Positions 50,277 to 63,686 of a stretch of 64,000 nucleotides of DNA are shown piece by piece. Within the stretch, counting starts at the first letter, position 1. Every line of letters begins with the position of its first letter. The notes beneath the pieces are model-generated. The model did not search any database. It worked only from the letters and a program-made list of their open reading frames with translations, and was not told the origin of the DNA. A program made the translations under genes and the position numbers. This DNA comes from Synergistaceae bacterium (GTDB lineage: Bacteria > Synergistota > Synergistia > Synergistales > Aminobacteriaceae), in assembly GCA_017450125.1 (NCBI GenBank), contig JAFSWZ010000017.1, forward strand, positions 1 to 64,000, written 5' to 3'.

Positions 50277-50384
50277 TGTGATTTGCACCTCCCGAGATGA
50301 GGCGATTATACAATAACGTGGGCTATAATTATTCTGCAAAGCCTGAGAAGACGGCCAAGAAAAATGATAAAGGAGGAAACATCA

Positions 50385-50741
50385 GTGAAGCGTATACTTT
50401 CAGCGTTGCTGCTGGTCGCGGTGCTCGCAGGTTCAGCGTACGGCCTCAGCGACAAGGATTACACGAGGATGAAGAGGGAGAGCAGCGTCTTCCGCGAGGC
50501 AGACAGGAAGCTCGGCGCAGTATGGCACAGAATCGAGGACGAAATCACTAAGCCTGCACGTTCTGTGTTCGAGATGCTTAAGGCGGAACAGCGCGACTGG
50601 ATAAAGTCCGGGCGGGACAGAGCCGCGAGGAAGTACATGAATGACGGCTTTGACGACTACAATGCATACGCTATAGCGACGTATGAGCGCATCGGATACC
50701 TCGAGGGATGGGAAGCTGTGATGTTCAACGATGACGATTGA
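50385..50741 (+). CDS. Small secreted LprI-like (DUF1311) protein
   Basis: 118 aa from GTG 50385, 8 bases after AAAGGAGG (the frame is open 7 codons further upstream, but the ribosome site lies within that part). Signal peptide: hydrophobic LSALLLVAVLAGSAYG. The mature part (FREADRKLGAVWHRIEDEIT, FEMLKAEQRDWIKSGRDRAA) has the QRxWxxxRD-type motif of lysozyme-inhibitor LprI N-terminal domains, but the Cys pair common in that family is absent. Role in envelope or lysozyme defence is only suggested by the family. Confidence 0.68.
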   Translation: MKRILSALLLVAVLAGSAYGLSDKDYTRMKRESSVFREADRKLGAVWHRIEDEITKPARSVFEMLKAEQRDWIKSGRDRAARKYMNDGFDDYNAYAIATYERIGYLEGWEAVMFNDDD

Positions 50742-50801
50742 CAGCGTCAGAGGACTTCCCCGCCCTCTTGAATTTTTCCCGCAGGAAAGGAGGAGACAGC
50801 G

Positions 50802-51065
50802 TTGGCAGTGGCGGTCTTGCGTTCACATTCACAGATAACAATTCCTGCTTCTGTTATCTCAAGTCTGGGGCTGAAAGAGGGCGACCAGCTCGAAATTTTT
50901 GCTGACAACGGAACAATAAGCATGATACCTGTAGCAGTTTACCCCGTTGATTACGTTGAACAGCTCCGCAAAGAGACGGCAGAACTCAGAGATAACATAT
51001 CTTCAGGGAAACAGCCTGTGTTCGATAGCGTTGACGCGATGATTGAGGCTCTGGAGAAGTCCTGA
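50802..51065 (+). CDS. AbrB/MazE-type antitoxin
   Basis: 87 aa from TTG 50802 with AAAGGAGG 10 bases upstream. The N-terminal swapped-hairpin DNA-binding fold is seen in SHSQITIPASVISSLGLKEG and DQLEIFADNGTISMIPV. The C-terminal 35 residues (VEQLRKETAELRDNISSGKQ then SVDAMIEALEKS) should wrap around the toxin. It overlaps the toxin start by one base (TGATG), which enforces joint translation. Confidence 0.85.
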   Translation: MAVAVLRSHSQITIPASVISSLGLKEGDQLEIFADNGTISMIPVAVYPVDYVEQLRKETAELRDNISSGKQPVFDSVDAMIEALEKS

Positions 51066-51328
51066 TGCTGAAAATCACTTACTCTGAACGTTTCCAGAAG
51101 CACTACAAGAAACTTTCAGCGGACGAGAAAGCTCAATTCAGGCGGAAGCTCGATGTGTTTGCGGATAATCCACTTCACCCTTCGCTGAGAACGAAACACA
51201 TTAAGGGTACTGACGGATTATTTGAGTTCAGCGTCAACATGGATATTCGAGTCATCTGGTTTTACGAGGGAGAAAATCTAGTTGCTCTTGTTGACATAGG
51301 GCATCACGACATCCTGAAAAACTTTTGA
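51065..51328 (+). CDS. RelE/YafQ-like toxin
   Basis: 87 aa. ITYSERFQKHYKKLSADEKA, HPSLRTKHIKGTDGLFEFSV, DIRVIWFYEGENLVALVDIG and a C-terminal HHDILKNF follow the RelE/YafQ/ParE fold, with the basic residues and the terminal His of the mRNA-interferase branch. It probably cleaves mRNA in the ribosome when the AbrB-type antitoxin is lost. Pairing of a RelE-type toxin with an AbrB-type antitoxin is a known mixed arrangement. The gene ends 6 bases before the repeat-containing promoter at 51334-51404. Confidence 0.87.
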   Translation: MLKITYSERFQKHYKKLSADEKAQFRRKLDVFADNPLHPSLRTKHIKGTDGLFEFSVNMDIRVIWFYEGENLVALVDIGHHDILKNF

Positions 51329-51333
51329 GTTCT

Positions 51334-51404
51334 GCGCGAAAGTTGATTTTCCTGCGTGAACGTTCTCTCCGCCGATTGAATTTCCCCGCAAAACCGGCGA
51401 TAAT
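51334..51404 (+). promoter_or_regulatory. Promoter with two 11-base direct repeats (operon of surface protein and peptide cassette)
   Basis: Repeat 1 GCGCGAAAGTT (51334-51344) and repeat 2 GCGTGAACGTT (51354-51364) start exactly 20 bases apart. Eleven bases later come -35 TTGAAT (51376-51381), a 17-base spacer and -10 GATAAT (51399-51404). The same layout stands before the sensor operon at 58306-58377. Direct repeats two helical turns apart just upstream of -35 are typical of activator sites such as response-regulator boxes. Confidence 0.72.
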
Positions 51405-51440
51405 TCACCCATGAATCCCACACAGAAAGGATTGACACAA

Positions 51441-53123
51441 GTGAATGATACTCGGTATAATGGCTCACGGCTCACGGTCAAACTATACTCTCCACACTGT
51501 AACTTCCCGCAATTCCTGAGGCATATTGCGCTCGTCATCGTACTGTTCCTAGCGTCATCCGGCACGGCTTGGGCGACGACGACCTCGACCATCACCGTAA
51601 GCGGCACGGACTACCTGCTGTTCACGGGCTTCACCGCTACGGGCGGAAACGGCAAGAACTACGCTAAGCTTGTGGACGGCAATACCAATACCGACTGGAG
51701 TGCATTGAAAAATTACGACGATGGGACAACGAATGATTTCGCAGGCGGCACGGAAGACCCCGCATTTGTGGAGTTCCACGCCGATTCGCCTGTCATACCG
51801 AAGGGCTATGTCCTGACCTGCGACAGTGAGAACGCCGGCTTCTGGAAACCCGTGCAGTGGGCGTTCAAGGCGAAACTGAACGAGGGCGACGAATGGACTG
51901 CCATTCATTCCTCAACGACAACGCTCGGTGCGGGAAAGACTTTCGAGATTGCCTGCACCAACGACGCGGGCAATCAGTATCAGTATTTCCGATTTGAGGT
52001 TTACGAAGTCGGCACAACAATGAAGGTGGACTTGGACGAAGTGCAGATTTATGCCCAGTTTACATATACCCCTGTATCCGCAAGGGCTGCGACCTGCACG
52101 GAATACGGTCTGTCGAGTGGCGGCTATCTGCGAAACGACGGCAAGTATTTCTCGGATGCAAACGGTACTACTGAGCTGACCGTAGGCAACGGCCTCATTG
52201 ATAAGATTCCCCACACAGGCGTACACCACGAAGCAGACGCGAATCATATTGAGTATTGGCAATGCTCCGTGTGCAGCAAGTATTTCACCGATGAAGCCTG
52301 CACTCATGAAGTTACGGCGGACGAAGTGCTGAAAACCGTCTTCGGAACGCTGACCGCCGGGACAAACGGCGCAAGCGGTTACTACACCCTCGAAAGCAAG
52401 ACCTATACGCTGACAGAAGATGTCAACACCGCCGGATATATCTACGTTCCTGAAGGCGTTACGGCTGCAATCGACCTTGCCGGGCATACTATTGACCGTG
52501 GGCTGACAAGTGCCATAACGAACGGAATGGTTATCCGGGTTGAGGGCAGCCTGACGGTTACAGACAGCGGCACGGGCGGCACGATAAAGGGCGGCATGGA
52601 CTCCAGCACTGAACATGTTTCCTGCGTTTTGGTTTACAGTGAGAATAGCAACCCCGTATTCACCCTGCAAGGCGGTACGCTTATCGGAAACACGAGCAAT
52701 CAATATAACAGTGCGGTTTTGGCCCCTAATAATTCGAACATTACCATTTCCGGCGGAAAGATTACCGGTGATGTATATGGTATTCATTCATATGGCAATG
52801 TTGCGGTATCCGGCGGTGAAATCAGCGGCAACACTACGGGAATATGGTCGCAGACCAACAGCGTTTCCGTGTCAGGCAATCCTGTCATCGCGAATAATAC
52901 CAACGCAAATGTCATGCTGTATTATGGCGACGCTTCTGTCTTGACCATTGCGGGCGAATTGACCGCTGGAGCAAATATCGGTATCACGGAAGGTGGCGGC
53001 AGCATACCCACCGACAATGCGCCCGTTACGATCACAAGCGGCTATGGCACATATCACAGCAATATATCGCTCGGCACATACTTTTCGCTTGACAACAACG
53101 GCCAAACGCTCGTAATGGGCTAG
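51441..53123 (+). CDS. Secreted beta-helix/repeat protein, N-terminal part before an in-frame amber
   Basis: 560 aa up to TAG 53121-53123. The predicted transcription start is near 51411, so ATG 51411 would have no leader; GTG 51441, about 9 bases after AAAGGA, is preferred. The signal peptide is hydrophobic (IALVIVLFLASSGTAWA). Next is a discoidin-like beta-sandwich (LVDGNTNTDWSALKNYDD ... YQYFRFEVYEVGTTMKVDLD), then a Cys-containing insert (HIEYWQCSVCSKYFTDEACT). Then follow right-handed beta-helix repeats of the type ITISGGKITGDVYGIHSYGN and VAVSGGEISGNTTGIWSQTN. The frame continues without frameshift after the TAG into the ORF at 53160-55742, so this is one 1433-codon gene split by a nonsense codon. 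Confidence 0.8.
   Translation: MNDTRYNGSRLTVKLYSPHCNFPQFLRHIALVIVLFLASSGTAWATTTSTITVSGTDYLLFTGFTATGGNGKNYAKLVDGNTNTDWSALKNYDDGTTNDFAGGTEDPAFVEFHADSPVIPKGYVLTCDSENAGFWKPVQWAFKAKLNEGDEWTAIHSSTTTLGAGKTFEIACTNDAGNQYQYFRFEVYEVGTTMKVDLDEVQIYAQFTYTPVSARAATCTEYGLSSGGYLRNDGKYFSDANGTTELTVGNGLIDKIPHTGVHHEADANHIEYWQCSVCSKYFTDEACTHEVTADEVLKTVFGTLTAGTNGASGYYTLESKTYTLTEDVNTAGYIYVPEGVTAAIDLAGHTIDRGLTSAITNGMVIRVEGSLTVTDSGTGGTIKGGMDSSTEHVSCVLVYSENSNPVFTLQGGTLIGNTSNQYNSAVLAPNNSNITISGGKITGDVYGIHSYGNVAVSGGEISGNTTGIWSQTNSVSVSGNPVIANNTNANVMLYYGDASVLTIAGELTAGANIGITEGGGSIPTDNAPVTITSGYGTYHSNISLGTYFSLDNNGQTLVMG
53121..53123 (+). other. In-frame amber codon splitting the surface-protein gene
   Basis: GGC TAG AAT GAG: the codon before and all 12 codons between it and the next ATG (53160) are in the same open frame as the downstream 860-codon ORF. 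A single G-to-A change of TGG (Trp) would create it. TAG ends many other genes in the window, so general amber recoding is unlikely. Confidence 0.85.
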
Positions 53124-53159
53124 AATGAGGACAGAACGGAGATTGCTGTCGGAACAGCC

Positions 53160-55742
53160 ATGAGAACCGTAACCTTTGACCTTCAAGGGCACGGCTCTGC
53201 TATTGAAGCGGTAAGCCTGTTAAGCGGCTATAAGCTGGTTGAACCGACTGAGCCGACAGCCGAGGGCTGGAGCTTTGGCGGATGGTACACCGATGAGGAC
53301 TTCACGGATGGTAATGAGTGGGACTTTGACAGCAGCGTTACTTCTGATATGACGCTGTACGCACTGTGGACGCAGGGGCAGATGTATCGTGTAACTCTGC
53401 CTGAGAATATGATTATCGTCAGTGCTGACAATGCGGCGGTCGGCGGTAAATATCCGTCAGGTACAAATATCAGATTCAAGGCTGCGCCGGATTATGTGGT
53501 TGACGGCGACGTAAAGAATGGAACTGAAACGCTGACCGCAGACGAAGACGGTATTTATACTGTAGCTTTAGGAAATGCAGACATCACCATTACCGCCACG
53601 ATAAAGAAAGCTGCTGAACCGAACAAGACCCTTTCGGGAAGCGAGAGTTATACGGCACAGAACGGCGACGTGCTGACAGGTTCGACCTCCGGCACGGTAA
53701 CGATTCCCGACGGAGCAAGCATTACGCTTTCCGATGTGAGCATTGGCGGCGGCATAGTCTGCAACGGCACGGCTACGATTACCCTCGTCGGTACGAACAG
53801 TGCGACGGGCGCAACCCAAAAGGCAGGTATCGAGGTCGGCGGAGAGAACACAACGCTCACTATCAAGGGCAACGGCTCGCTGACGGCAACCGGCGGCCAA
53901 CATTCAGCAGGGATCGGCCTTAGTCGTGCTTGGGATCCTGCCAATGATGTCATCGGCGGCGATATTATCATCGAGGGCGGAACTATCACTGCAAACGGCG
54001 GCTATTGGGGCGCAGGTATCGGCACGGGCGTTATCTATGGTAACGGCAGCGCGAAGACCGCAAGACTCGGCAACATCACCATCAAGGGCGGCACGGTAAA
54101 GGCAACAGGCGGCACTGATGCAGACGGAATCGGAACAGGATACACCTACAGCCCATGCACAAACGCAATCGGAACAGTAACGGTTTATGACGGCATCGAC
54201 AAGGTTGACGCTTCGAGCATCAAGGACTTCACCAGCGTGGTCTATATGCACAGCGAGACCAACGTAACCGCCAACAAGACCGACTACTTCACCATCAGCG
54301 AGGACGGCGACCGCAGAGTCATCACACAGAAGCACTACACTATCACCGTTGCTGGCGGCATTGAGAATGGCAGAGTTACTGCGGGCAAGTCCGGGGCTGT
54401 CGAGGGTGATACTGTTACCCTGACTATTACGCCCGTCGATGGCTACAGCATCGGCACGGTGAGCTATAACGACACGGAAATAACCGCTAATAACGGTGTC
54501 TATTCGTTCACGATGCCTGCTGTCAGCGTAACTATATCCGTAACGTTTACGCCAATCCCCTACACAATCACGTACAACCTTGACGGCGGCAGTCTTGCAG
54601 ACGGCGTGAGCAACCCCGCGAGCTACACGGTCGAGGACACACCCATAACCCTGACGAACCCCGCGAAGGACGGTTACACCTTCAAGGGCTGGACTGGTAC
54701 AGACCTCACCGAAGCAACACAGACCGTAACGATTGCGCAGGGCTCGACGGGAAACCGCGCGTATTCCGCAGTGTGGGAGCAGAACGGCGGAACATCACCA
54801 GAGTCCGGCGCGCCTAAGTTCAAGTATCAGGCTCTCGTGCTCGACGGGAAGATAGCGGTCAGGTTCGCGATGGATCTATCTTCACTTGATGAGACGGTGC
54901 GTTCAGGAAGCTATATGATGTTCGACATCAGCGGCGACAGAACCTCAAACAACCGCAAGCCTTTCTATGAGACCGACAGCTTCACCGACGGGACGGGCAA
55001 ATATTACTACTTCGACTGCGGAATCAAGTCCATCGAGATGGCGAACAACATCAGAGCCGAGTTCTATTACGGTGATGGTCTGGTCGTCAGCAAGGATTAC
55101 ACGGCGAGGCAGTACCTCAACGACATGCTCGCAGATGAGAAGTATGCAGGGAATGATGATTACAGCGTCGCAGTCCGAAACCTGATGAAGGCAATCAAGG
55201 ATTACGGGCATTACGCACAGCTGATGCTCTCTGCGTACAGGGGCTGGAGTCTCGGCGGGGATTATGCTCCGATCGAGAACGAGAACACTTACGCGAGCAG
55301 TGATGTAACTCTAGTGAACAGCATTAAGTCGGCGACGGAGCAATACGCTTTCCGCAAGACTATCAGCGGCTCTGACATTGAAGAAGTAACTTTCAGCCTT
55401 GCGCTGGACTCGTACACGACCATCAATGTACTGGTGAACTCGGCCTCAGAGGTAACAGCGTCCCTCAAGAACGGAGGCGGGCTTCAGGTCGTGCCTCAGG
55501 ACAATAACCGTTATCTTATCGAGCTGGACAACATACCTGCCCACGAACTCACCAAGACATTCGATGTTGTGATAAACGCCGGAAACAGCTCGTGCGAAGT
55601 GAACGTGTCGGCAATGTCGTACGTTTACGCCGTTCTGACGGACAGCACTGATTATGCGTATGAGCCGGAGCTTGCTGCTGCACTGTACAAGTATTACGAG
55701 GCGAATCAGGCCTACAGGACAGCGGCAGGGTATTCGGACTAG
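53160..55742 (+). CDS. Secreted repeat protein, C-terminal part after the amber codon
   Basis: 860 aa from ATG 53160, though the same frame extends to 53124 and no ribosome site precedes the ATG, so independent translation is doubtful. It contains an InlB-type B-repeat (VTFDLQGHGSAIEAVSLLSG ... GWSFGGWYTDEDFTDGNEWD), a carbohydrate-binding-like beta-helix with GIEVGGENTTLTIKGNGSLT and GGTITANGGYWGAGIGTG, a second B-repeat (YTITYNLDGGSLADGVSNPA) and a C-terminal alpha/beta domain (YQALVLDGKIAVRFAMDLSS onward) also common on gut-bacterial surface proteins. There is no LPXTG or membrane anchor. The peptide gene starts 21 bases after its stop. The bottom half of this ORF is a good candidate for horizontal origin, judging by domain content. 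Confidence 0.75.
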   Translation: MRTVTFDLQGHGSAIEAVSLLSGYKLVEPTEPTAEGWSFGGWYTDEDFTDGNEWDFDSSVTSDMTLYALWTQGQMYRVTLPENMIIVSADNAAVGGKYPSGTNIRFKAAPDYVVDGDVKNGTETLTADEDGIYTVALGNADITITATIKKAAEPNKTLSGSESYTAQNGDVLTGSTSGTVTIPDGASITLSDVSIGGGIVCNGTATITLVGTNSATGATQKAGIEVGGENTTLTIKGNGSLTATGGQHSAGIGLSRAWDPANDVIGGDIIIEGGTITANGGYWGAGIGTGVIYGNGSAKTARLGNITIKGGTVKATGGTDADGIGTGYTYSPCTNAIGTVTVYDGIDKVDASSIKDFTSVVYMHSETNVTANKTDYFTISEDGDRRVITQKHYTITVAGGIENGRVTAGKSGAVEGDTVTLTITPVDGYSIGTVSYNDTEITANNGVYSFTMPAVSVTISVTFTPIPYTITYNLDGGSLADGVSNPASYTVEDTPITLTNPAKDGYTFKGWTGTDLTEATQTVTIAQGSTGNRAYSAVWEQNGGTSPESGAPKFKYQALVLDGKIAVRFAMDLSSLDETVRSGSYMMFDISGDRTSNNRKPFYETDSFTDGTGKYYYFDCGIKSIEMANNIRAEFYYGDGLVVSKDYTARQYLNDMLADEKYAGNDDYSVAVRNLMKAIKDYGHYAQLMLSAYRGWSLGGDYAPIENENTYASSDVTLVNSIKSATEQYAFRKTISGSDIEEVTFSLALDSYTTINVLVNSASEVTASLKNGGGLQVVPQDNNRYLIELDNIPAHELTKTFDVVINAGNSSCEVNVSAMSYVYAVLTDSTDYAYEPELAAALYKYYEANQAYRTAAGYSD

Positions 55743-55763
55743 CAGGAAGGAGGTGAATTAAGA

Positions 55764-55874
55764 ATGGAGCATAAAGCAGAGTACAAGAGGCTTGAGATTG
55801 AGGTCGTAGATTACGAGTACGAAGACGTGATCACGACAAGCGACGGAGCTACTACTACTCCTTATCATGGATAA
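55764..55874 (+). CDS. Candidate 36-residue precursor peptide of the modification cassette
   Basis: A small gene with the strongest ribosome site in the window (GGAAGGAGGTGAA, 10 bases before ATG). The product is 36 aa, acidic and Tyr-rich: the leader-like part MEHKAEYKRLEIEVVDYEYE, then DVIT, then a core-like TSDGATTTPYHG with Ser and four Thr. The arrangement Y-K-x-x-x-I-E-V-V-x-Y-x-x-E-D-V-I-T-T-S recalls short precursor-like peptides that I remember in Clostridia beside PqqD genes; this is recollection, not a search. It overlaps the kinase gene start by 8 bases, so it is coupled to it. Phosphorylation of the Ser/Thr core by the kinase would be the simplest hypothesis. Confidence 0.72.
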   Translation: MEHKAEYKRLEIEVVDYEYEDVITTSDGATTTPYHG

Positions 55875-56568
55875 GGTTTACCGTATAGCAGACAGGAACA
55901 TACGGATCAGCTCGCTGTTCTCGTTCATTCACGTTTACTGCGCTGAATACCAGACGGACAGCGAGCCTGATTTTGAGGTGGAGACAACGTATGCGGACAT
56001 TGAGGCCGAACGCAGGACGGTAAGCGCGGAAGTTGCGGGCGGATGGGCGGAGGTCTCTGCGGTGTTCAGGAAGATAGCGGAGAGAATGCCGGAGTACAGT
56101 ACGTTCATGCTTCACGGCTCTGCAGTTGCTGTTGACGGGGAAGGTTACTTGTTCACGGCGAAGAGCGGGACGGGGAAATCAACGCACGCGAGGCTGTGGC
56201 GCGAACTTCTGGGAGGCCGGGCCGTGATGGTGAACGACGACAAACCGTTTGTCAGGGTTGCCGACGGTGAAGCGATAGTCTGCGGAAGCCCGTACAGCGG
56301 GAAGGAAGGCCTGAACACGAACATATCAGTACCGTTGAAGGCAGTCTGCGTTCTTGAGCGTTCGGAGACTAACAGCATCAGAGAGGCGGGCTTCAGCGAG
56401 GTGTACCCAGTGCTTCTCCAGCAGACTTATCACCCGTCGGACAGAATGATGCTCGGCAGGACTCTGGAGCTTCTGGACGGTCTTGGCCAAGCTGTGAGGT
56501 TCTACAGGCTCTCCTGCAATCAGGAGCTGGAGGCGGCGGAAATGTCTTACAGCGCGATGAAAGGATAG
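55867..56568 (+). CDS. HPr-kinase-like ATPase (lasso-kinase-like peptide kinase)
   Basis: 233 aa. The C-terminal domain is that of HPr kinase/phosphorylase: P-loop FTAKSGTGKSTHARLW (residues 96-111), acidic NDDKPFVR (Asp124, Asp125), GSPYSGKEGLNTN, and a Cys- and Tyr-containing end. The HPrK N-terminal domain and the phosphorylase signature are absent, as in the kinases of paeninodin-type lasso peptide clusters, which phosphorylate a Ser of the precursor. It starts inside the last codons of the peptide gene and is followed after 3 bases by the PqqD gene. A peptide Ser/Thr kinase role is inferred from family and context. Confidence 0.82.
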   Translation: MDKVYRIADRNIRISSLFSFIHVYCAEYQTDSEPDFEVETTYADIEAERRTVSAEVAGGWAEVSAVFRKIAERMPEYSTFMLHGSAVAVDGEGYLFTAKSGTGKSTHARLWRELLGGRAVMVNDDKPFVRVADGEAIVCGSPYSGKEGLNTNISVPLKAVCVLERSETNSIREAGFSEVYPVLLQQTYHPSDRMMLGRTLELLDGLGQAVRFYRLSCNQELEAAEMSYSAMKG

Positions 56569-56571
56569 ACT

Positions 56572-56838
56572 ATGAGGTTAAGGGATGAATTTCTGACCCA
56601 CACGAGCGGCGGTGAAGCGTACTTAGTGCCGTCGGGAAACGTTGAGTTTCGGGGATTAGTGAGGGGCAATGAATCACTCGGTGAAGTCATCGAGCTCTTG
56701 AAGACTGACACGACAGAAGCGGAAATCGTTAAGGCTCTGCGTGAAAAGTACAGCGCGCCGGACGGAGCAATAGAGCTTGATGTCAGGAAAGCAGTAGAAG
56801 TTCTGCGGAGCGTGGGGGCATTAATTGAGCAGCCTTGA
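56572..56838 (+). CDS. PqqD-family peptide chaperone (RiPP recognition element)
   Basis: 88 aa, PqqD-like: three N-terminal strands (FLTHTSGGEAYLVPSGNVEF) and a helical half (SLGEVIELLKTDTTEAEIVK then YSAPDGAIELDVRKAVEVLR) in the winged-helix order of peptide-binding RRE domains. Such proteins bind the leader of a ribosomal peptide and present it to modifying enzymes. It stands third in the cassette; its last 14 bases overlap the peptidase gene. Its presence is the main argument that the cassette modifies a peptide. Confidence 0.9.
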   Translation: MRLRDEFLTHTSGGEAYLVPSGNVEFRGLVRGNESLGEVIELLKTDTTEAEIVKALREKYSAPDGAIELDVRKAVEVLRSVGALIEQP

Positions 56839-57241
56839 ACAATACCTGTCAGAACACGGACGCGTAATCTCCGCGAATGTCGGAGTGAGTATGCTGCCGC
56901 TTTTGCGTGAAGGGAAGGATCTATTCTTCTTAGAGAAGAAGGGGGCTGAACGCTGCAGAGCCGGTGATGTGGTTCTTTACCGCCGGAAGCGTCAGTACGT
57001 GCTTCACCGTGTAATTGAGGTTCGGGAGAAGGATTATGTTATTCTTGGCGACAACTGCACGGCGAAGGAGTACGGCATTCAGGACGGCGACATTCTGGCA
57101 GTGATGACCTCATTCATCCGCAGCGGCAGAGAACACAGCGTGAAGGAGTTTGCGTACAGGGTATATTCGTTCGTGTGGCTGAAGATTGCTCCTCTGCGGA
57201 TATTCTTGAAGCGTTCAGTGAAGGGGCTGATCGGGCGATGA
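56825..57241 (+). CDS. Soluble S24/S26-type serine peptidase
   Basis: 138 aa from TTG 56825. The signal-peptidase box GVSMLPLLREGKDLFFLEKK places Ser22 as nucleophile. VLYRRKRQYVLHRVIEV has His61 where bacterial type I signal peptidases have Lys, as in the SipW/ER type, and VILGDNCTAKEYGIQDGDIL gives the Asp76. The N-terminal membrane anchor of true signal peptidases is missing, so it is probably cytoplasmic or only loosely bound through the hydrophobic C-terminus (VYSFVWLKIAPLRIFLK). In this cassette it is a candidate for cutting the leader from the precursor, replacing the transglutaminase-like B2 protease of lasso clusters. Confidence 0.82.
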   Translation: MSSLEQYLSEHGRVISANVGVSMLPLLREGKDLFFLEKKGAERCRAGDVVLYRRKRQYVLHRVIEVREKDYVILGDNCTAKEYGIQDGDILAVMTSFIRSGREHSVKEFAYRVYSFVWLKIAPLRIFLKRSVKGLIGR

Positions 57242-58311
57242 TAACAGGCACGGCGGAGGCGGTGATATACCTCGCTTCCTGTGCGGTGAACGGTACGAAG
57301 CCGGATGCAGAGAGGCTCGCAGGAGCAGACTTCGGAGCGTTGCTGTCGTTCGCGTCGTATCACATGCTGGGTGCGGTTGTCGCGATGGGGCTCGAAGATG
57401 CAGGGTTCACGGGCAGGGACATTCGGAAGCATATAGCGTTCTCGGTGAGGAAGAGCGTATGCTTTGAGGCGGCGAACCGTGAAGTTCTTGCTGGTCTTGA
57501 GGAAGCGGGGATCTGGTACATGCCGCTGAAAGGTGCTGTGCTGAAAGATTACTATCCGCGCTTCGGAATGCGCGAGATGTCCGACTACGACATACTGATT
57601 GACACTACACGCGCCCACGACGTGAGGAGGATAATGCAGTCTCTGGGGTTCAGGACTGAGGAGTTCGGCTGGGGAACTCATGACGTGTATTACCGCGAGC
57701 CGCTCTGCAACTTCGAGATGCACAGGGAGCTGTTCGAGGCCTCGTTTGATGAGCACCTGCACTCCTGCTATTCCAGCGTGAAAAGCAGACTGATAAAGGA
57801 TGACGGGAATAATTACGGCTACCATTTCACCCCTGAAGATTTCTACCTGTACATTACAGCCCACGAGTACAAGCATTATTCGCTGGGAGGTACAGGACTG
57901 CGCTCGCTGCTTGATGTTTATGTGCTCCTGAGGAGGTTCGAGGGACAGCTTGATTTCGGCTATGTATTGAGTGAGGCGGAGAAGCTGGGGCTCTCGGAGT
58001 TCGAGGCCAAGAATCGCGGGCTCGCACTGAACCTTTTCGGGAACAGGGAACTGACTGACGGGGAACAGGAGATGCTTGAATATATCGTTCAGTCAGGAGT
58101 TCACGGCAACGTAGAGATCAGCGTACGCAACGGCCTGAAGAAATGCGGCGGTGGCAAGATAAAGTACCTGCTCTCGAGAATATTTCCTTCCATGAATAGC
58201 ACCAAGCACAAAATCTATTACCCTGCTCTGATAATTTTCCGCCTGCTGAGAGCATTAACCCTGAAACGGCACAAAATCCTGCTCGAGCTCCGGCATCTGT
58301 TCTCCGCGTAA
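57238..58311 (+). CDS. Nucleotidyltransferase-family protein (NTP_transf_5)
   Basis: 357 aa from ATG 57238, which overlaps the peptidase stop as ATGA; the frame is open 21 codons upstream within the peptidase gene. The nucleotidyltransferase fold appears as YMPLKGAVLKDYYPRFGMRE followed by MSDYDILID, with Asp116 and Asp118 as the metal-binding pair; NFEMHRELFEASFDEHLHSC and PEDFYLYITAHEYKHYSLGG follow the family pattern. Members occur in some lasso and lantibiotic clusters, where a role in nucleotidylating or glycosylating the peptide has been proposed. It is the last gene of the cassette; no transporter gene follows. Confidence 0.83.
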   Translation: MITGTAEAVIYLASCAVNGTKPDAERLAGADFGALLSFASYHMLGAVVAMGLEDAGFTGRDIRKHIAFSVRKSVCFEAANREVLAGLEEAGIWYMPLKGAVLKDYYPRFGMREMSDYDILIDTTRAHDVRRIMQSLGFRTEEFGWGTHDVYYREPLCNFEMHRELFEASFDEHLHSCYSSVKSRLIKDDGNNYGYHFTPEDFYLYITAHEYKHYSLGGTGLRSLLDVYVLLRRFEGQLDFGYVLSEAEKLGLSEFEAKNRGLALNLFGNRELTDGEQEMLEYIVQSGVHGNVEISVRNGLKKCGGGKIKYLLSRIFPSMNSTKHKIYYPALIIFRLLRALTLKRHKILLELRHLFSA

Positions 58312-58377
58312 AAGTTGCTTCTCTTTCGTGAATGTTGCTCCGAATACCTGTAATCTTGGCCTGAAATCTGCAATAAT
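58306..58377 (+). promoter_or_regulatory. Promoter with two direct repeats before the BMP/sensor operon
   Basis: Repeat 1 GCGTAAAAGTT (58306-58316) and repeat 2 TCGTGAATGTT (58326-58336) again start 20 bases apart. -35 TGTAAT (58349-58354) and -10 AATAAT (58372-58377) are 17 bases apart. The layout equals that at 51334-51404. The first repeat overlaps the last codons of the nucleotidyltransferase gene. Confidence 0.72.
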
Positions 58378-58406
58378 TAGCAGACCTTAGGGAAGTGAGG
58401 CAGTCT

Positions 58407-59498
58407 ATGAGGAAAATCATCTTTATCGCGTTCTTTCTCCTTTTCGCCGCCATCGCAGGAATCTACCTGATACACGATATACAGGTGAACACTGATGTTA
58501 CGGCCAAGACCACGAAAGTAGGCGTACTGATAAACGGAAGCCGCTACGACCACAGCTATTGCCAGGCACATTATGAGGCACTAGAGGCCATCAAGGACGA
58601 GCTTAACCTCGAGTACGTCTATCTGGAGCATGTGCCTATGAACTGCTATAAAGACATTGTCAGCCTCATACGCGACAAGGACTGCAAGATTATTATCGGT
58701 GTATCGTTCGAGTTCGGCATTGACATGATGAAGGCGGCGGAAAAGTTCCCAAGCATTTACTTTCTCCACGCGTCAGGAGTAAATCACCGTAAAAATTTCT
58801 CCTCATTCTTCGGCAGAATGTATCAGGCACGTTATCTTTCTGGCATCGCTGCGGGCATGAACACCAAAACAGGAGAACTCGGCTACGTTGCGGCGTTCCC
58901 CATCTCGGAGGTCATCAGGGGCATCAACGCCTTCACTCTCGGAGTCAGGAGCGTACGGCCGGACGCTGTCGTTCATGTGCGTTACTGCAACGCGTGGCAG
59001 GGGGACGAAGTAGCCGGAGAAGTCTGCCGCAAACTGCTGGAGCTTCATCCCATTGACGTTGTGGCAATGCACACAGATTCACTACAGCCACACATAGAAG
59101 CCGACGCTAGAGGGATATGGTCTGTCGGCTACAACATCAACAACGCCGCTATGTTCCCGGATACCTATCTGACCGCCTGCATCTGGAAGTGGGAAGTGTA
59201 TTACCGCAAGCAGATACTTAACTGCCTGCAGGGGAAATTCATCGGGCATCATGATTTGATGGAGATGGATGAAGGCATTGTTGCTCTCTCGGGATTGTCC
59301 GAACATGCAGACCCGCAGACGAAAGCCAAAGTCCAGGCCGCAGACGAAAAGCTCCGTACTCTGGAATTTGACGTGTTCTACGGCCCGATTACGGACAACG
59401 CGAACATTCTGCGCATCGATGAAGGAGAATCCATGCCCGACGACGAGATGTTCAACCGCTTTTACTGGTATGTGGAGGGCGTGAATGTTGAAGAGTAG
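58407..59498 (+). CDS. Membrane-anchored BMP/PnrA-type binding protein 1
   Basis: 363 aa. An N-terminal membrane helix without lipobox Cys (MRKIIFIAFFLLFAAIAGIY) is followed by a basic-membrane-protein (BMP, PnrA-like) periplasmic binding fold: KVGVLINGSRYDHSYCQAHY, IIIGVSFEFGIDMMKAAEKF, RMYQARYLSGIAAGMNTKTG, ELGYVAAFPISEVIRGINAF, VVAMHTDSLQPHIEADARGI. Characterised BMP proteins bind purine nucleosides for ABC uptake; no transporter is here. Instead it overlaps a second BMP gene and a sensor kinase gene, so it is probably a ligand sensor component. ATG 58407 is chosen because transcription should start near 58384. Confidence 0.85.
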   Translation: MRKIIFIAFFLLFAAIAGIYLIHDIQVNTDVTAKTTKVGVLINGSRYDHSYCQAHYEALEAIKDELNLEYVYLEHVPMNCYKDIVSLIRDKDCKIIIGVSFEFGIDMMKAAEKFPSIYFLHASGVNHRKNFSSFFGRMYQARYLSGIAAGMNTKTGELGYVAAFPISEVIRGINAFTLGVRSVRPDAVVHVRYCNAWQGDEVAGEVCRKLLELHPIDVVAMHTDSLQPHIEADARGIWSVGYNINNAAMFPDTYLTACIWKWEVYYRKQILNCLQGKFIGHHDLMEMDEGIVALSGLSEHADPQTKAKVQAADEKLRTLEFDVFYGPITDNANILRIDEGESMPDDEMFNRFYWYVEGVNVEE

Positions 59499-60588
59499 GA
59501 AATGGGCGGTGCATGACCTGCCTCTGCTGCTTGCGGGGATTATCTGCGTTGTGCTGGTCGTCGTGATTCAGAGCTTCCAGCTGCCGGAGACGGGACGGCG
59601 TATTGTCGTAGGCTGTGTCCTTGTAGGCGATAGAGACGACAAGGGCTGGAACGAGAGCCACTGCATCGGTCTGCTGAATGCCTGCCGCACTTACGACTGC
59701 GGCTTTATGGCGTGGGAACGTGTTGCTGAGAGCGAGCCCACTGTGTCCGCCGCTGTCAGGGAGCTCGTGAATAACGGTGCTAACGTAATCTTTCTGACAA
59801 GTTTCGGCTACGGCCAGTACATGGACGAGATTGCACGGAAATATCCGCGTGTAGCATTCTTCGGGATTTCCGGCGAAGGTGCGGCCAAGAACTCGACAAC
59901 GTATTTTGCACGGCTGTATCAGGCACGGTATATCGCAGGTATAATCGCCGGAGCAGAAAGCAGGACAGGCATTCTCGGCTACGTTACTTCCGCGCCGAAC
60001 CCTCAGGTGAACCGCAGCATCAACGCCTACGCTATGGGTATGCGCCTCGCTAATCCGAAGGCACGGCTCATCGTCCGATTCACAGGAAGCTGGGAGAACA
60101 AAGCGGCTGAACGTGAAAGCGTAGTCCTGCTCGCGGAGAAGGGAGCTGATGTCATAACCTACCATGAGGACAGACCCTACGCCGTGCAAGAAGCCGAGAA
60201 GCTCGGGCTTATGAGCATAGGCTATGATGCTGTGTACGAGAAATATTCTGATAAGTTCCTGACAGCCGCATTGTACAACTGGAAGGTTCTCTACGAGAAA
60301 GTGCTCGGGGATTACACCAGCGGAAGGTCTAACTTCTCCAGCAGCTACTGGCTCGGCTTCGAGGAAGATGCTGTAGCCCTGTATCCGTTCTCGCCGCGAG
60401 TGTCAGAGAAAGCCGCGTCTCTGGCTTCTGCGGGGAAAGAAAGAATCATGAATTACAGCAGCGTCTTTTCCGGCGTAATTTACGACAATCAGGGGATGCT
60501 TCGCTGCAACAAGGACGAACGAATCAGCGACCATGAACTTTTTACGGGTATGGAGTGGTTCGTAGAAGGAGTAGAGATTTATGACTAA
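59485..60588 (+). CDS. Membrane-anchored BMP/PnrA-type binding protein 2
   Basis: 367 aa, paralog of the preceding protein and overlapping it by 14 bases. Anchor helix LLLAGIICVVLVVVIQSF; BMP motifs GCVLVGDRDDKGWNESHCIG, RLYQARYIAGIIAGAESRTG, ILGYVTSAPNPQVNRSINAY and FTGSWENKAAERESVVLLAE. The C-terminal end (ELFTGMEWFVEGVEIYD) matches that of protein 1 (EMFNRFYWYVEGVNVEE), a conserved end that may touch the kinase sensor domain. It overlaps the kinase gene by 8 bases. Confidence 0.85.
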   Translation: MLKSRKWAVHDLPLLLAGIICVVLVVVIQSFQLPETGRRIVVGCVLVGDRDDKGWNESHCIGLLNACRTYDCGFMAWERVAESEPTVSAAVRELVNNGANVIFLTSFGYGQYMDEIARKYPRVAFFGISGEGAAKNSTTYFARLYQARYIAGIIAGAESRTGILGYVTSAPNPQVNRSINAYAMGMRLANPKARLIVRFTGSWENKAAERESVVLLAEKGADVITYHEDRPYAVQEAEKLGLMSIGYDAVYEKYSDKFLTAALYNWKVLYEKVLGDYTSGRSNFSSSYWLGFEEDAVALYPFSPRVSEKAASLASAGKERIMNYSSVFSGVIYDNQGMLRCNKDERISDHELFTGMEWFVEGVEIYD

Positions 60589-63346
60589 GCGAATATCCAT
60601 GCTCGTGATTAGCAAAGGCTCTGTCTTGGTGACGGCGGTCTTCGGAGTACTGCTGCTTTTCGTGGGAGTGATGTTCAATGTGCGAATGGACGAGCTCCTG
60701 ACAGCCTACACCGAGAACCAGACAGAACGTCAGGCGGAAACCCTCGCGGAGAAGGCCGCAGAAACTCTCGGGACTGAGCTTAAGACGCTCGCCTATGTTG
60801 CCTCAAAGATTGAAGCCAACCCCGCAGCAATCCGCCTGCTGATGCCTCTGCTCTTCAACGAAAAAGGAGTACGGCAGGGACTTCTGGCCATCGACGGTCA
60901 TGCAGTGTACGGGGACGCGCTTTCCCTGCGGACATATAGCGGCATAAAGACGGCGTTTCGCGGCACAAGTGCCATCACTTTCGCCAGAGAGGCAGGACTC
61001 CTCTTTACCTGCCCGGTATTTCACGGCAAGAACGTCAAGTACGTCCTCTATCGGCTGTACCCGCTTAAGTCTATTGCTGAACGTTTCTCCATAACTTGCT
61101 ATGACGACATCGGAAAGATTCTGATTGTTACGCGGGACGGTGATATAGTCGTTCCGTTCGCGGAAAATGCCTCTAAGGATGTAGCCTTCATGCAGAGCAA
61201 TGAAGTCAAGGGCTTCTACCGCTCCATGCATAGGGAAATGGAAGTATCGGTGGCGGCCGCACGTTCCTTCAGGACGATACGCGGGGAAATGCTGCTGTTC
61301 GAGGCGGAAATTCCCGGCACGGACTATATACTGATGGGGTTCGTACCCAAGATGAAAGCCTCTGAGGGCATCGAGAATATCACGCTCTTAGTGGTGTGGG
61401 TGTTCGGACTGCTTATGCTGCTGGTTGCTTTGGGGTGTATGTATCTGGTTCGCGTTCGTGTGCAGATTCAGGAGAGCGAAGAACTGAGGGAGGCGAAGGC
61501 GGCGGCAGAGTATGCGTCTCAGGCAAAGAGCGTGTTCCTGTCCAACATGTCGCACGAGATTCGTACGCCGATTAATGCGGTGCTCGGCATGAATGAGATG
61601 ATTCTGCGTGAGAGTGAAGAACGTAACATTCTCGAGTACTCCGAGAACATTCGCACGGCAGGTACTACGTTGCTGGGGCTCATCAATGACATCCTCGACT
61701 TCAGCAAGATCGAGGCCGGCAAGATGGACATTATCCCCGTAACTTATGACCTGTCCTCCGTCATCAATGACCTCGTCAACATGATACAGGCACGCGCAGA
61801 CAAGAAGGGGCTTCTGCTAAAGCTCGACTTTGACGGCAATATCCCGAAGATGCTTCACGGCGACGAGGTACGAATCAAGCAGGTTGTTACGAACATCCTC
61901 ACCAACGCCGTAAAATACACCGAGAAAGGCAGCGTAACTTTCCGAATCGGCTATGAAGCTGACGGTTCAGACGGCGTGTTTCTGGACTTCGCTGTGATTG
62001 ATACGGGAATAGGGATAAAGCCTGAAGACATGGCCAAGCTGTTCTCAGAGTTCGAGCGCATCGAGGAGAAACGCAACCGCAGCATTGAGGGCACGGGCTT
62101 AGGGATGAACATCACCAAACGGCTGCTCGAGATGATGGGTACGTCGCTGAAGGTTGAGAGCGTTTACGGCAAGGGTTCAACGTTCTCGTTCCGGCTTCGG
62201 CAGGGGGTCATAAAGTGGGACGCGCTGGGAGATTACGAGGCGGCTCACAGAGCTTCTCTGCTCTCGATGAAGAAGTATAAGGAGAGGTTCACTGCTCCTG
62301 ACGCACGCGTCCTTGTTGTTGACGATACGCCGATGAACCTGACGGTGTTCAAGGGGCTGCTCAAGAAGACGCTCATAAGGATTGACACGGCCGACAGCGG
62401 GATGCAGGCCCTCTCGCTCGCGGGGGAGAAGAAGTACGATGTTATCTTTGTCGACCACATGATGCCCAACATGGACGGCATAGAGACGCTCCAAAGGTTA
62501 CGGGCTGATACTGCAGGGCTGAACTTCACGACACCCGCTATATGCCTGACAGCCAACGCAATTTCCGGTGCGCGTGAAGAGTATCTCGCCGCAGGGTTCG
62601 ACGACTACCTGAGCAAGCCCATTGATGCCGTGAAACTCGAGGACATGCTGACGCGATACCTTCCGCCGGAGAAAATTCTTGCCCCTAGCGACGCTGAGCC
62701 CGCACATAACACCTCTCTTCCCGAGTGGTTGTACGGCATTGAGGAGCTGGATGTTAGGGCAGGGCTGAAACACTGCGGCGACGAGGAAGCATATCTCGAT
62801 ACCCTCAAAATCTATGGTAGCTACTCAGCGGCAGGAGCGGACGAGATTGCGGGGTTCTGGACTTCACGGGACATCGCCAACACTACGGTGAAGGTTCACG
62901 CCCTCAAGAGTACTTCACGTGCTATCGGTGCGGAGGATCTGGGGGCTCTGGCGGAGAAGCTCGAGTTTGCCGGCAAGGCTGGTGATGCGGCTGTGCTTGA
63001 CGCGGACTTGGCCGGACTGCTCGAACGTTACAGGGCTTTAGGGGCGGCGTTGTCCCCGCTGTACGCTCCCGCGAAAAATGCTCAGGATGAAGCGGAGCTT
63101 CCGCCGGTCCCTGAAGACGAACTGCGCAAAGCATATAATTCTGTCCGTGAGTGCGCGGAAAATCTTGACGTTGACGGCGCGCTCTCTGCGCTGGACTGCC
63201 TGAAGGGGTTTCGACTGCCTGAGAGCGAGAAGCAACGGGTTGAACAGCTCCGCAGTGCGGTAGACGAGTTCGACTGGGACAGCGTAAACGAAATTTTAGG
63301 AGGTATTCATGACAATGGAGAAGAAACAGATTCTGCTCGTGGATGA
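60581..63346 (+). CDS. Hybrid sensor histidine kinase with receiver and HPt domains
   Basis: 921 aa. Membrane helices at about 14-32 and 266-290 bracket a 230-residue outside sensor domain (Cache-like by position). Then HisKA with SNMSHEIRTPINAVLGMNEM (His325), HATPase_c (NILTNAVKYTEKGSV, VIDTGIGI, SIEGTGLGMNITKRLLEMMG), a receiver domain with phospho-acceptor Asp625 in VIFVDHMMPNMDG and Lys679, and an HPt domain with VHALKSTSRAIGA (His773). The C-terminal 100 residues are helical without a named domain. It forms an operon with two BMP proteins and a receiver-only protein; signal flow is probably His325 to Asp625 to His773 to the separate regulator. Confidence 0.93.
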   Translation: MTKRISMLVISKGSVLVTAVFGVLLLFVGVMFNVRMDELLTAYTENQTERQAETLAEKAAETLGTELKTLAYVASKIEANPAAIRLLMPLLFNEKGVRQGLLAIDGHAVYGDALSLRTYSGIKTAFRGTSAITFAREAGLLFTCPVFHGKNVKYVLYRLYPLKSIAERFSITCYDDIGKILIVTRDGDIVVPFAENASKDVAFMQSNEVKGFYRSMHREMEVSVAAARSFRTIRGEMLLFEAEIPGTDYILMGFVPKMKASEGIENITLLVVWVFGLLMLLVALGCMYLVRVRVQIQESEELREAKAAAEYASQAKSVFLSNMSHEIRTPINAVLGMNEMILRESEERNILEYSENIRTAGTTLLGLINDILDFSKIEAGKMDIIPVTYDLSSVINDLVNMIQARADKKGLLLKLDFDGNIPKMLHGDEVRIKQVVTNILTNAVKYTEKGSVTFRIGYEADGSDGVFLDFAVIDTGIGIKPEDMAKLFSEFERIEEKRNRSIEGTGLGMNITKRLLEMMGTSLKVESVYGKGSTFSFRLRQGVIKWDALGDYEAAHRASLLSMKKYKERFTAPDARVLVVDDTPMNLTVFKGLLKKTLIRIDTADSGMQALSLAGEKKYDVIFVDHMMPNMDGIETLQRLRADTAGLNFTTPAICLTANAISGAREEYLAAGFDDYLSKPIDAVKLEDMLTRYLPPEKILAPSDAEPAHNTSLPEWLYGIEELDVRAGLKHCGDEEAYLDTLKIYGSYSAAGADEIAGFWTSRDIANTTVKVHALKSTSRAIGAEDLGALAEKLEFAGKAGDAAVLDADLAGLLERYRALGAALSPLYAPAKNAQDEAELPPVPEDELRKAYNSVRECAENLDVDGALSALDCLKGFRLPESEKQRVEQLRSAVDEFDWDSVNEILGGIHDNGEETDSARG

Positions 63347-63686
63347 TGATGTTACGTTCCTGAAGATGATGCAGACTTGGCTGTCGGCAGATTACCGCGT
63401 CGCCGCCGCTCGTACAGGCATGCAGGCTCTAAAGTATCTGGCTGAACATTCGGCTGACCTCATCCTTCTGGATTACGAGATGCCGCTTATGGACGGCCCG
63501 AAAATCCTTGAAGCACTACGCAGCAAGCCGGGAACCGCGAGCATTCCCGTTATCTTCCTGACTGGCAAGAGCGATCCTGAGAGCGTCAGGAACGTCATGA
63601 GCCTGAAACCCGCAAGTTACCTCCTGAAGTCCAAGAACAAAGAAGAGATACTGGAATCGCTGAGCAGTTTCTTCATCAATCACTAG
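63309..63686 (+). CDS. Single-domain response regulator (CheY-like)
   Basis: 125 aa receiver domain: acidic pocket LLVDDDVTFL, phospho-Asp in LILLDYEMPLMDG, Thr in PVIFLTGKSD, Lys in SYLLKSKNKEE. It lacks an output domain. ATG 63309 follows TTAGGAGG by 5-6 bases and lies inside the last 38 bases of the kinase gene. It would receive phosphate from the kinase HPt domain, or act as a phosphate sink. If the operators at 51334 and 58306 answer this pathway, the DNA-binding protein must be encoded elsewhere. Confidence 0.92.
   Translation: MTMEKKQILLVDDDVTFLKMMQTWLSADYRVAAARTGMQALKYLAEHSADLILLDYEMPLMDGPKILEALRSKPGTASIPVIFLTGKSDPESVRNVMSLKPASYLLKSKNKEEILESLSSFFINH

Follow-up and report, generated by a model that had tools for sequence, protein, structure and literature searches.

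Two promoters in a 64,000-nucleotide stretch of a Synergistaceae genome (the window, G000:C17:1-64000) carry the same pair of direct repeats upstream of the −35 hexamer. One stands before an operon for a surface protein and a small peptide, the other before a neighbouring sensor operon that starts with two BMP/PnrA-like binding proteins. Judged by sequence, the two belong to a single operator class that spans the genus. We consider it probable that this class served an ancestral regulon of a LytTR response regulator and a GHKL kinase, and that the window sites were orphaned or recently uncoupled from it in this genome. Such a regulon would be of a known type, the LytTR systems. The organism is a ruminant-gut bacterium with an assembly of 2.16 Mb in 43 contigs (97.14% complete); relatives of its BMP protein with 81–88% identity occur in metagenome-derived genomes of Synergistaceae/Synergistales, sampled from the rumen, reticulum, and omasum of goats and from sheep. 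The comparison set consisted of 43 genomes of the genus, this one (G000) included.

Two window sites and their operator class

In both sites, the repeat units start 20 bp apart, and 9 bases separate the AAAGTTG block from the CGTGAAYGTT block (Table 1). The first-pass annotation of this DNA had reported this register, this gap, and the positions of both sites, and re-reading of the sequence confirmed them. The consensus proposed there, GCGYRAANGTT, does not describe unit 2 of site 2, which begins with T. The −35 and −10 hexamers with a 17-base spacer had been placed correctly as well, although the −35 hexamer of site 2 is poor; a simple promoter scan listed 51376-51404 and not 58349-58377, and the latter can alternatively be read as CTGTAA with an 18-nucleotide spacer. 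A YafQ/ParE-like toxin gene ends upstream of operator 1, which starts six bases past its stop codon; an NTP_transf_5 gene has its stop codon within unit 1 of operator 2. A reading of the sites as RNA elements finds no support, since an Rfam search of 50300-58700 returned no RNA family.

A genome-wide scan for the repeat pair had also been called for. Run with AAAGTTG-N8..10-CGTGAAYGTT, it matched the two window sites and no other position in the 2.16 Mb; the reversed pattern, as a control, gave no match, and the pairs thus exceed chance. A stricter 31-nucleotide pattern with three mismatches allowed again returned only these two sites from the genome. Single SCGYRAANGTT units were found 12 times in the window (1.3 expected); three of them belong to the two pairs, and the remaining nine form no such pair.

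A sequence-only profile, R1, was built from 26 sites of relatives, with none from this genome. The sites were hand-picked from the matches listed by a two-mismatch pattern search in nine genomes, which had returned many sites with T-rich spacers. The chosen loci held 27 sites; the distal pair at G021:C123, where three repeat units stand in series, was left out. Since mostly sites with T-rich spacers were picked, this feature was partly selected. The −10 hexamer played no part in the picking, yet the picked sites share one at a fixed distance. R1 scored sites 1 and 2 at 43.0 and 38.1 bits, and the next best of the matches listed for the genome had 17.4 bits. Within the window, the two sites were the sole matches up to E = 10 (E = 3e-12 and 1e-10).

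In the genus-wide scan, strict filters applied and no more than 108 candidates from each genome were scored with R1, so that all operator counts are lower bounds. At least 91 sites of 25 bits or more were found in 31 of the 43 genomes. The 20-bp register was kept in 89 of the 91 sites, and a −10 hexamer lay 44–46 nucleotides from the start of unit 2 in 79 of them, a figure partly built into the profile. Among the matches listed, this genome has two operators as against up to 12 in one relative. The first genus-wide exact pattern was discarded after its matches in G017 and G042 proved to lie inside a conserved coding gene, unrelated to promoters; no exact match to the consensus site was found in viral contigs.

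In relatives, sites of the class precede the BMP operon (three other genomes) or a related surface protein, or adjoin a matching toxin-antitoxin pair. An ortholog of the BMP protein with at least 80% identity is present in seven genomes, and an operator stands before it in four, this genome included. The counterparts of site 2 scored 55.5 (G004), 50.9 (G015), and 55.2 bits (G021), and none was found in G018, G020, and G032; before the G004 and G021 orthologs, repeats and promoter are arranged likewise. For site 1, one counterpart lies in G016:C83, beside the same antitoxin-toxin pair and with a nearly identical promoter and leader start, and a second lies in G011:C145, where the surface protein that follows is related at its N-terminus (63% over 35 residues). 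Outside the repeats, each window site is closer, by eye, to the site at the corresponding gene in other genomes than to the other window site. These separate counterparts identify the two as separately inherited members of one class, and they support the earlier view that no simple recent duplication is involved. A chance resemblance, or one promoter recently copied to a second place, would suit two sites that lie less than 7 kb apart and are the only ones in the genome; it is hardly conceivable in view of the E values obtained with an independent profile and the likeness of each site to its own counterparts.

The first gene behind the operator was read at the 92 sites that reached 24 bits, with domains taken from representatives; five sites had no reading frame before the contig end. 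A LytTR regulator followed 13 operators (in G040 as a truncated gene), an aspartokinase-like gene 12, a fusion of a Na:alanine symporter and a binding protein 7, the BMP operon 4, and a TMEM43-like gene 2. Many further first genes encode small secreted or large surface proteins. The aspartokinase-like gene (AA_kinase and ACT domains; e.g., G026:C11:20763-23500) precedes a LytTR regulator or a kinase at some of its loci. In the symporter fusion (L163, L158, L159, and others), the binding part is a family-3 solute-binding domain, and in G025 and G014 the fusion is followed by a long membrane protein resembling a sensor.

The LytTR regulator and the GHKL kinase of relatives

Some operators in relatives lead into an operon of a receiver-LytTR regulator (PF00072 and PF04397) followed by a membrane-bound, AgrC-like GHKL kinase (PF14501), whose membrane segments were judged by eye. 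A GHKL kinase is the partner of the regulator in the plantaricin and AgrA systems. The pair of Agr type, an AgrA-like receiver-LytTR regulator with an AgrC-like GHKL kinase, is present in the relatives only. The regulator family comprises 43 strong genes (at least 288 bits) in 29 genomes, several relatives having two or more copies; the only solved structure that a sequence search found to be related is 3d6w, one response-regulator domain (E = 2e-5). An operator lies at most 150 bp upstream of 13 of the 43 strong genes (one operator at 21.7 bits). Same-strand operators no more than 4 kb upstream accompany 21 of the genes, and 30 have one if 4 kb to both sides are counted. Operators occur in 28 of the 29 regulator-positive genomes, the exception being G003, versus 3 of the 14 others (G000, G026, and G040). 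For this co-occurrence, one-sided Fisher tests with site thresholds of 25 and 30 bits gave p = 7e-7 and 0.0002, and those with 35 and 40 bits both gave 0.004. In G040, a truncated regulator stands directly behind an operator, and a divergent second homolog is present.

The predicted operator class fits known LytTR sites in length, register, and position upstream of −35. LytTR sites have 9–11-nucleotide repeats with an 11–13-nucleotide gap (PMC4847170); with 9-nucleotide repeats and an 11-nucleotide gap at a 20-bp register, the class lies at the lower edge of this range. Repeats are described 4–11 bp (often 10) upstream of −35, with gaps of 11–13 and autoregulation (PMC6193735), and the distances in the window are 11 and 12 bases. 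Plantaricin sites (PlnC/PlnD) are, like here, two direct repeats directly upstream of −35, on one helix face and with an autoregulated operon (PMC2714321); their 9-nucleotide repeats and 12-bp gap give a 21-bp instead of a 20-bp register, and the repeat sequence and the targets are others. The AgrA sites are direct repeats just upstream of −35 as well, at promoters with poor spacing (PMC4227749). The AgrA system differs in repeat sequence and targets, and AgrB (PF04647) was found in none of the 43 genomes here, in a search that covered AgrB and not the AgrD peptide, and with a weak control (1 of 14 control genomes matched, none over the cut-off). In Streptococcus mutans, the HdrRM and BrsRM sites are direct repeats 4–11 bp upstream of −35, with gaps of 12 or 11 bp and positive autoregulation; these regulators pair with an inhibitory membrane protein, whereas here a receiver-LytTR response regulator goes with a GHKL kinase. 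As predicted here, YpdB of Escherichia coli is a LytTR response regulator with paired direct repeats of 10 nucleotides, but the repeat sequence is another and the partner is a LytS-type kinase.

The presence of a LytTR gene among the targets, together with repeats that match LytTR sites in length, gap, and position, makes a LytTR response regulator the likely activator of the class. The operator class is thus in keeping with the first-pass guess of a response regulator.

State of the control core in this genome

Among the matches listed for G000, the regulator family profile found, besides receiver-only proteins, only pieces at C19:28027-28538. Their translation gives a receiver domain without about 35 residues, which carry the phosphorylation site in relatives. 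A second gap and a frameshift lie inside the LytTR domain, and the kinase gene behind it is in pieces. No match to PF04397 was obtained in G000, and the LytTR-only family profile, at E up to 5, hit only this remnant. The absence of PF04397 had at first made a LytTR regulator seem unlikely, an impression overturned by the sister genomes that have the regulator. Upstream of the C19 gene that is operator-driven in G020, inspection by eye showed one unit-like stretch and no −10, and R1 returned no match at this truncated operator. The control core on C19 appears to have decayed while the two window operators persist; the state of the remnant may be due to an assembly error, and about 3% of the genome is absent from the assembly. 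With regulator and kinase in remnants and no other LytTR domain found, the window sites are probably orphaned or served by a regulator outside the assembly. Most likely, they are orphaned or recently uncoupled.

The proposal that one activator controls both operons is supported as an ancestral design, both sites being of one class, and is not supported as a description of current function. With the probable cognate regulator reduced to a remnant on another contig, it is doubtful that the two operons still share a working activator in this organism. Nor does the regulator belong to the sensor system next to the peptide operon: the one free-standing regulator there (63309-63686) is a receiver in which no DNA-binding domain was found. 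An intact LytTR regulator could lie in the unassembled part, in which case the regulon would be live and both window operons co-activated. The completeness of 97.14% in 43 contigs leaves room for it, the window operators (38–43 bits) score within the range of regulator-positive genomes, and several relatives have two or more regulator copies. We regard this as unlikely, given that PF04397 has no match, that the family LytTR profile finds only the remnant, and that two operators remain here versus up to 12 in a relative.

Several points weigh against an ancestral LytTR/GHKL regulon that lost its regulator here. The LytTR half-site core is [AT][AC][AC]GTT, and only 37 of the 91 sites contain it in unit 1 and 11 in unit 2. 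PMC4847170, on the other hand, states that LytTR sites have no consensus in common. With the sites near regulator genes left out, co-occurrence falls to 19 of 29 versus 3 of 14 genomes (p = 0.008), and none of the p-values given takes common descent into account. G003 lacks any operator despite its two strong regulator genes. In G026, two operators (a further one scores 24.7 bits) occur together with a GHKL kinase, and no regulator was found in the stretches examined; one operator precedes genes for an aspartokinase-like protein and a GHKL-type kinase. Both window sites survive despite the regulator loss, which speaks against simple loss of use. Finally, a perfect TTGACA-18-TATAAT at 51432-51461 could drive transcription without any activator. 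The ribosome site and the surface gene's probable start overlap with it, and a similar stretch occurs in G011:C7 and G016:C83.

The operators without a regulator in G026 and the reverse in G003 would also agree with binding of the repeats by a regulator of another class (e.g., OmpR- or AraC-type), the LytTR link being only shared ancestry. Further families, such as the OmpR type, do use direct repeats, but the published OmpR-type repeats considered here are 11 bp apart and not 20. Since operators stand directly before a LytTR gene in 13 of 43 cases and no operator turned up in 11 of the 14 genomes that lack a strong regulator, we consider another class quite improbable.

For the ancestral LytTR/GHKL regulon, the GHKL membrane kinase would sense a signal and phosphorylate the LytTR regulator. 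The regulator would bind both repeats as a dimer; at 20 bp apart, these lie on the same face of the helix. When bound, it would recruit RNA polymerase to a weak −35 and an AATAAT-like −10, 11–12 bp downstream of the repeats. To judge by operator position only, the effect would be activation, not repression. Predicted targets in relatives are secreted and surface proteins, the BMP-sensor operon, the Na:alanine symporter fusion, the aspartokinase-like gene, and the regulator's own operon, the last of which would provide positive feedback. In this genome, both operons may now run at a basal level or on other promoters, such as the TTGACA-18-TATAAT. A peptide as the kinase signal is speculation, since the search for AgrB, with its weak control, found none.

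A broader reading is possible, but tentative: rumen Synergistaceae may share a LytTR/GHKL regulon for cell-to-cell signalling that has not been described before, has operators of its own in the 20-bp register, and runs sensor operons and peptide cassettes as well as surface proteins. Here its core would have decayed and two operators survived, the regulon outliving its regulator or being rewired. No description of LytTR regulation in Synergistaceae or Synergistetes was found in the open-access literature searched. Promoter look-alikes have thereby become a predicted regulon whose regulator family can be named, in a phylum with little-studied regulation, and the operator model is ready for scanning other genomes. 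Sister species with and without the regulator, plus one with operators and a broken regulator, form a natural experiment.

Genes at the two operators

Table 1. Features at the two operator-promoters of the window
Feature	Position	Strand	Details
MazE-like/YafQ-ParE-like antitoxin-toxin pair	50802-51328		upstream of operator 1
Operator 1, repeat unit 1	51334-51344	+	GCGCGAAAGTT; core CGCGAAAGTT 51335-51344
Operator 1, repeat unit 2	51354-51364	+	GCGTGAACGTT; core CGTGAACGTT 51355-51364
Operator 1 promoter	51376-51404	+	TTGAAT 51376-51381, 17-nucleotide spacer, GATAAT 51399-51404; 11 bases past unit 2
Surface gene start region	51426-51443	+	probable ribosome site AAAGGA 51426-51431, GTG start 51441 (by eye)
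Secreted/surface protein, first part	51441-53123	+	ends at in-frame TAG 53121-53123
Surface protein, second part, same frame	53160-55742	+	List_Bact_rpt and InlB B-repeat domains
36-residue peptide gene, possible precursor	55764-55874	+	no family match
HPr-kinase-like protein	55867-56568	+	weak match
PqqD-family protein	56572-56838	+	
Signal-peptidase-I-like protein	56825-57241	+	match below curated cut-off
NTP_transf_5 nucleotidyltransferase	57175-58311	+	
Operator 2, repeat unit 1	58306-58316	+	GCGTAAAAGTT; core CGTAAAAGTT 58307-58316
Operator 2, repeat unit 2	58326-58336	+	TCGTGAATGTT; core CGTGAATGTT 58327-58336
Operator 2 promoter	58349-58377	+	TGTAAT 58349-58354, 17-nucleotide spacer, AATAAT 58372-58377; 12 bases past unit 2
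BMP/PnrA-like binding protein 1	58395-59498	+	
BMP/PnrA-like binding protein 2	59485-60588	+	
Hybrid histidine kinase	60581-63346	+	HisKA, HATPase_c, receiver, weak Hpt
Stand-alone receiver domain	63309-63686	+	no DNA-binding domain found

The antitoxin-toxin pair has an operator only downstream in the window, and operators on both sides in G016:C83. The surface gene has an alternative ATG at 51411, which leaves just 6 bases to the −10 of operator 1. In the G016 counterpart, the frame from this ATG is soon stopped, and the start matching 51441 is open through the stretch examined. The long surface-protein frame under operator 1 (51441-55742) is cut in two by the in-frame TAG.

The genes at 55764-58311 resemble a peptide-modification cassette of the lasso-peptide-accessory sort, and no cyclase is found among them. 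The NTP_transf_5 gene is present in 11 of the 43 genomes, this one included. In G025, G021, and G011, an operator stands upstream of the counterpart on the same strand of its contig, and in G041 a weak site of 21.8 bits does; no operator link was seen in the other six. BMP protein 1 has relatives of 54–64% identity in Selenomonas ruminantium and other rumen Firmicutes, which suggests exchange within the rumen.

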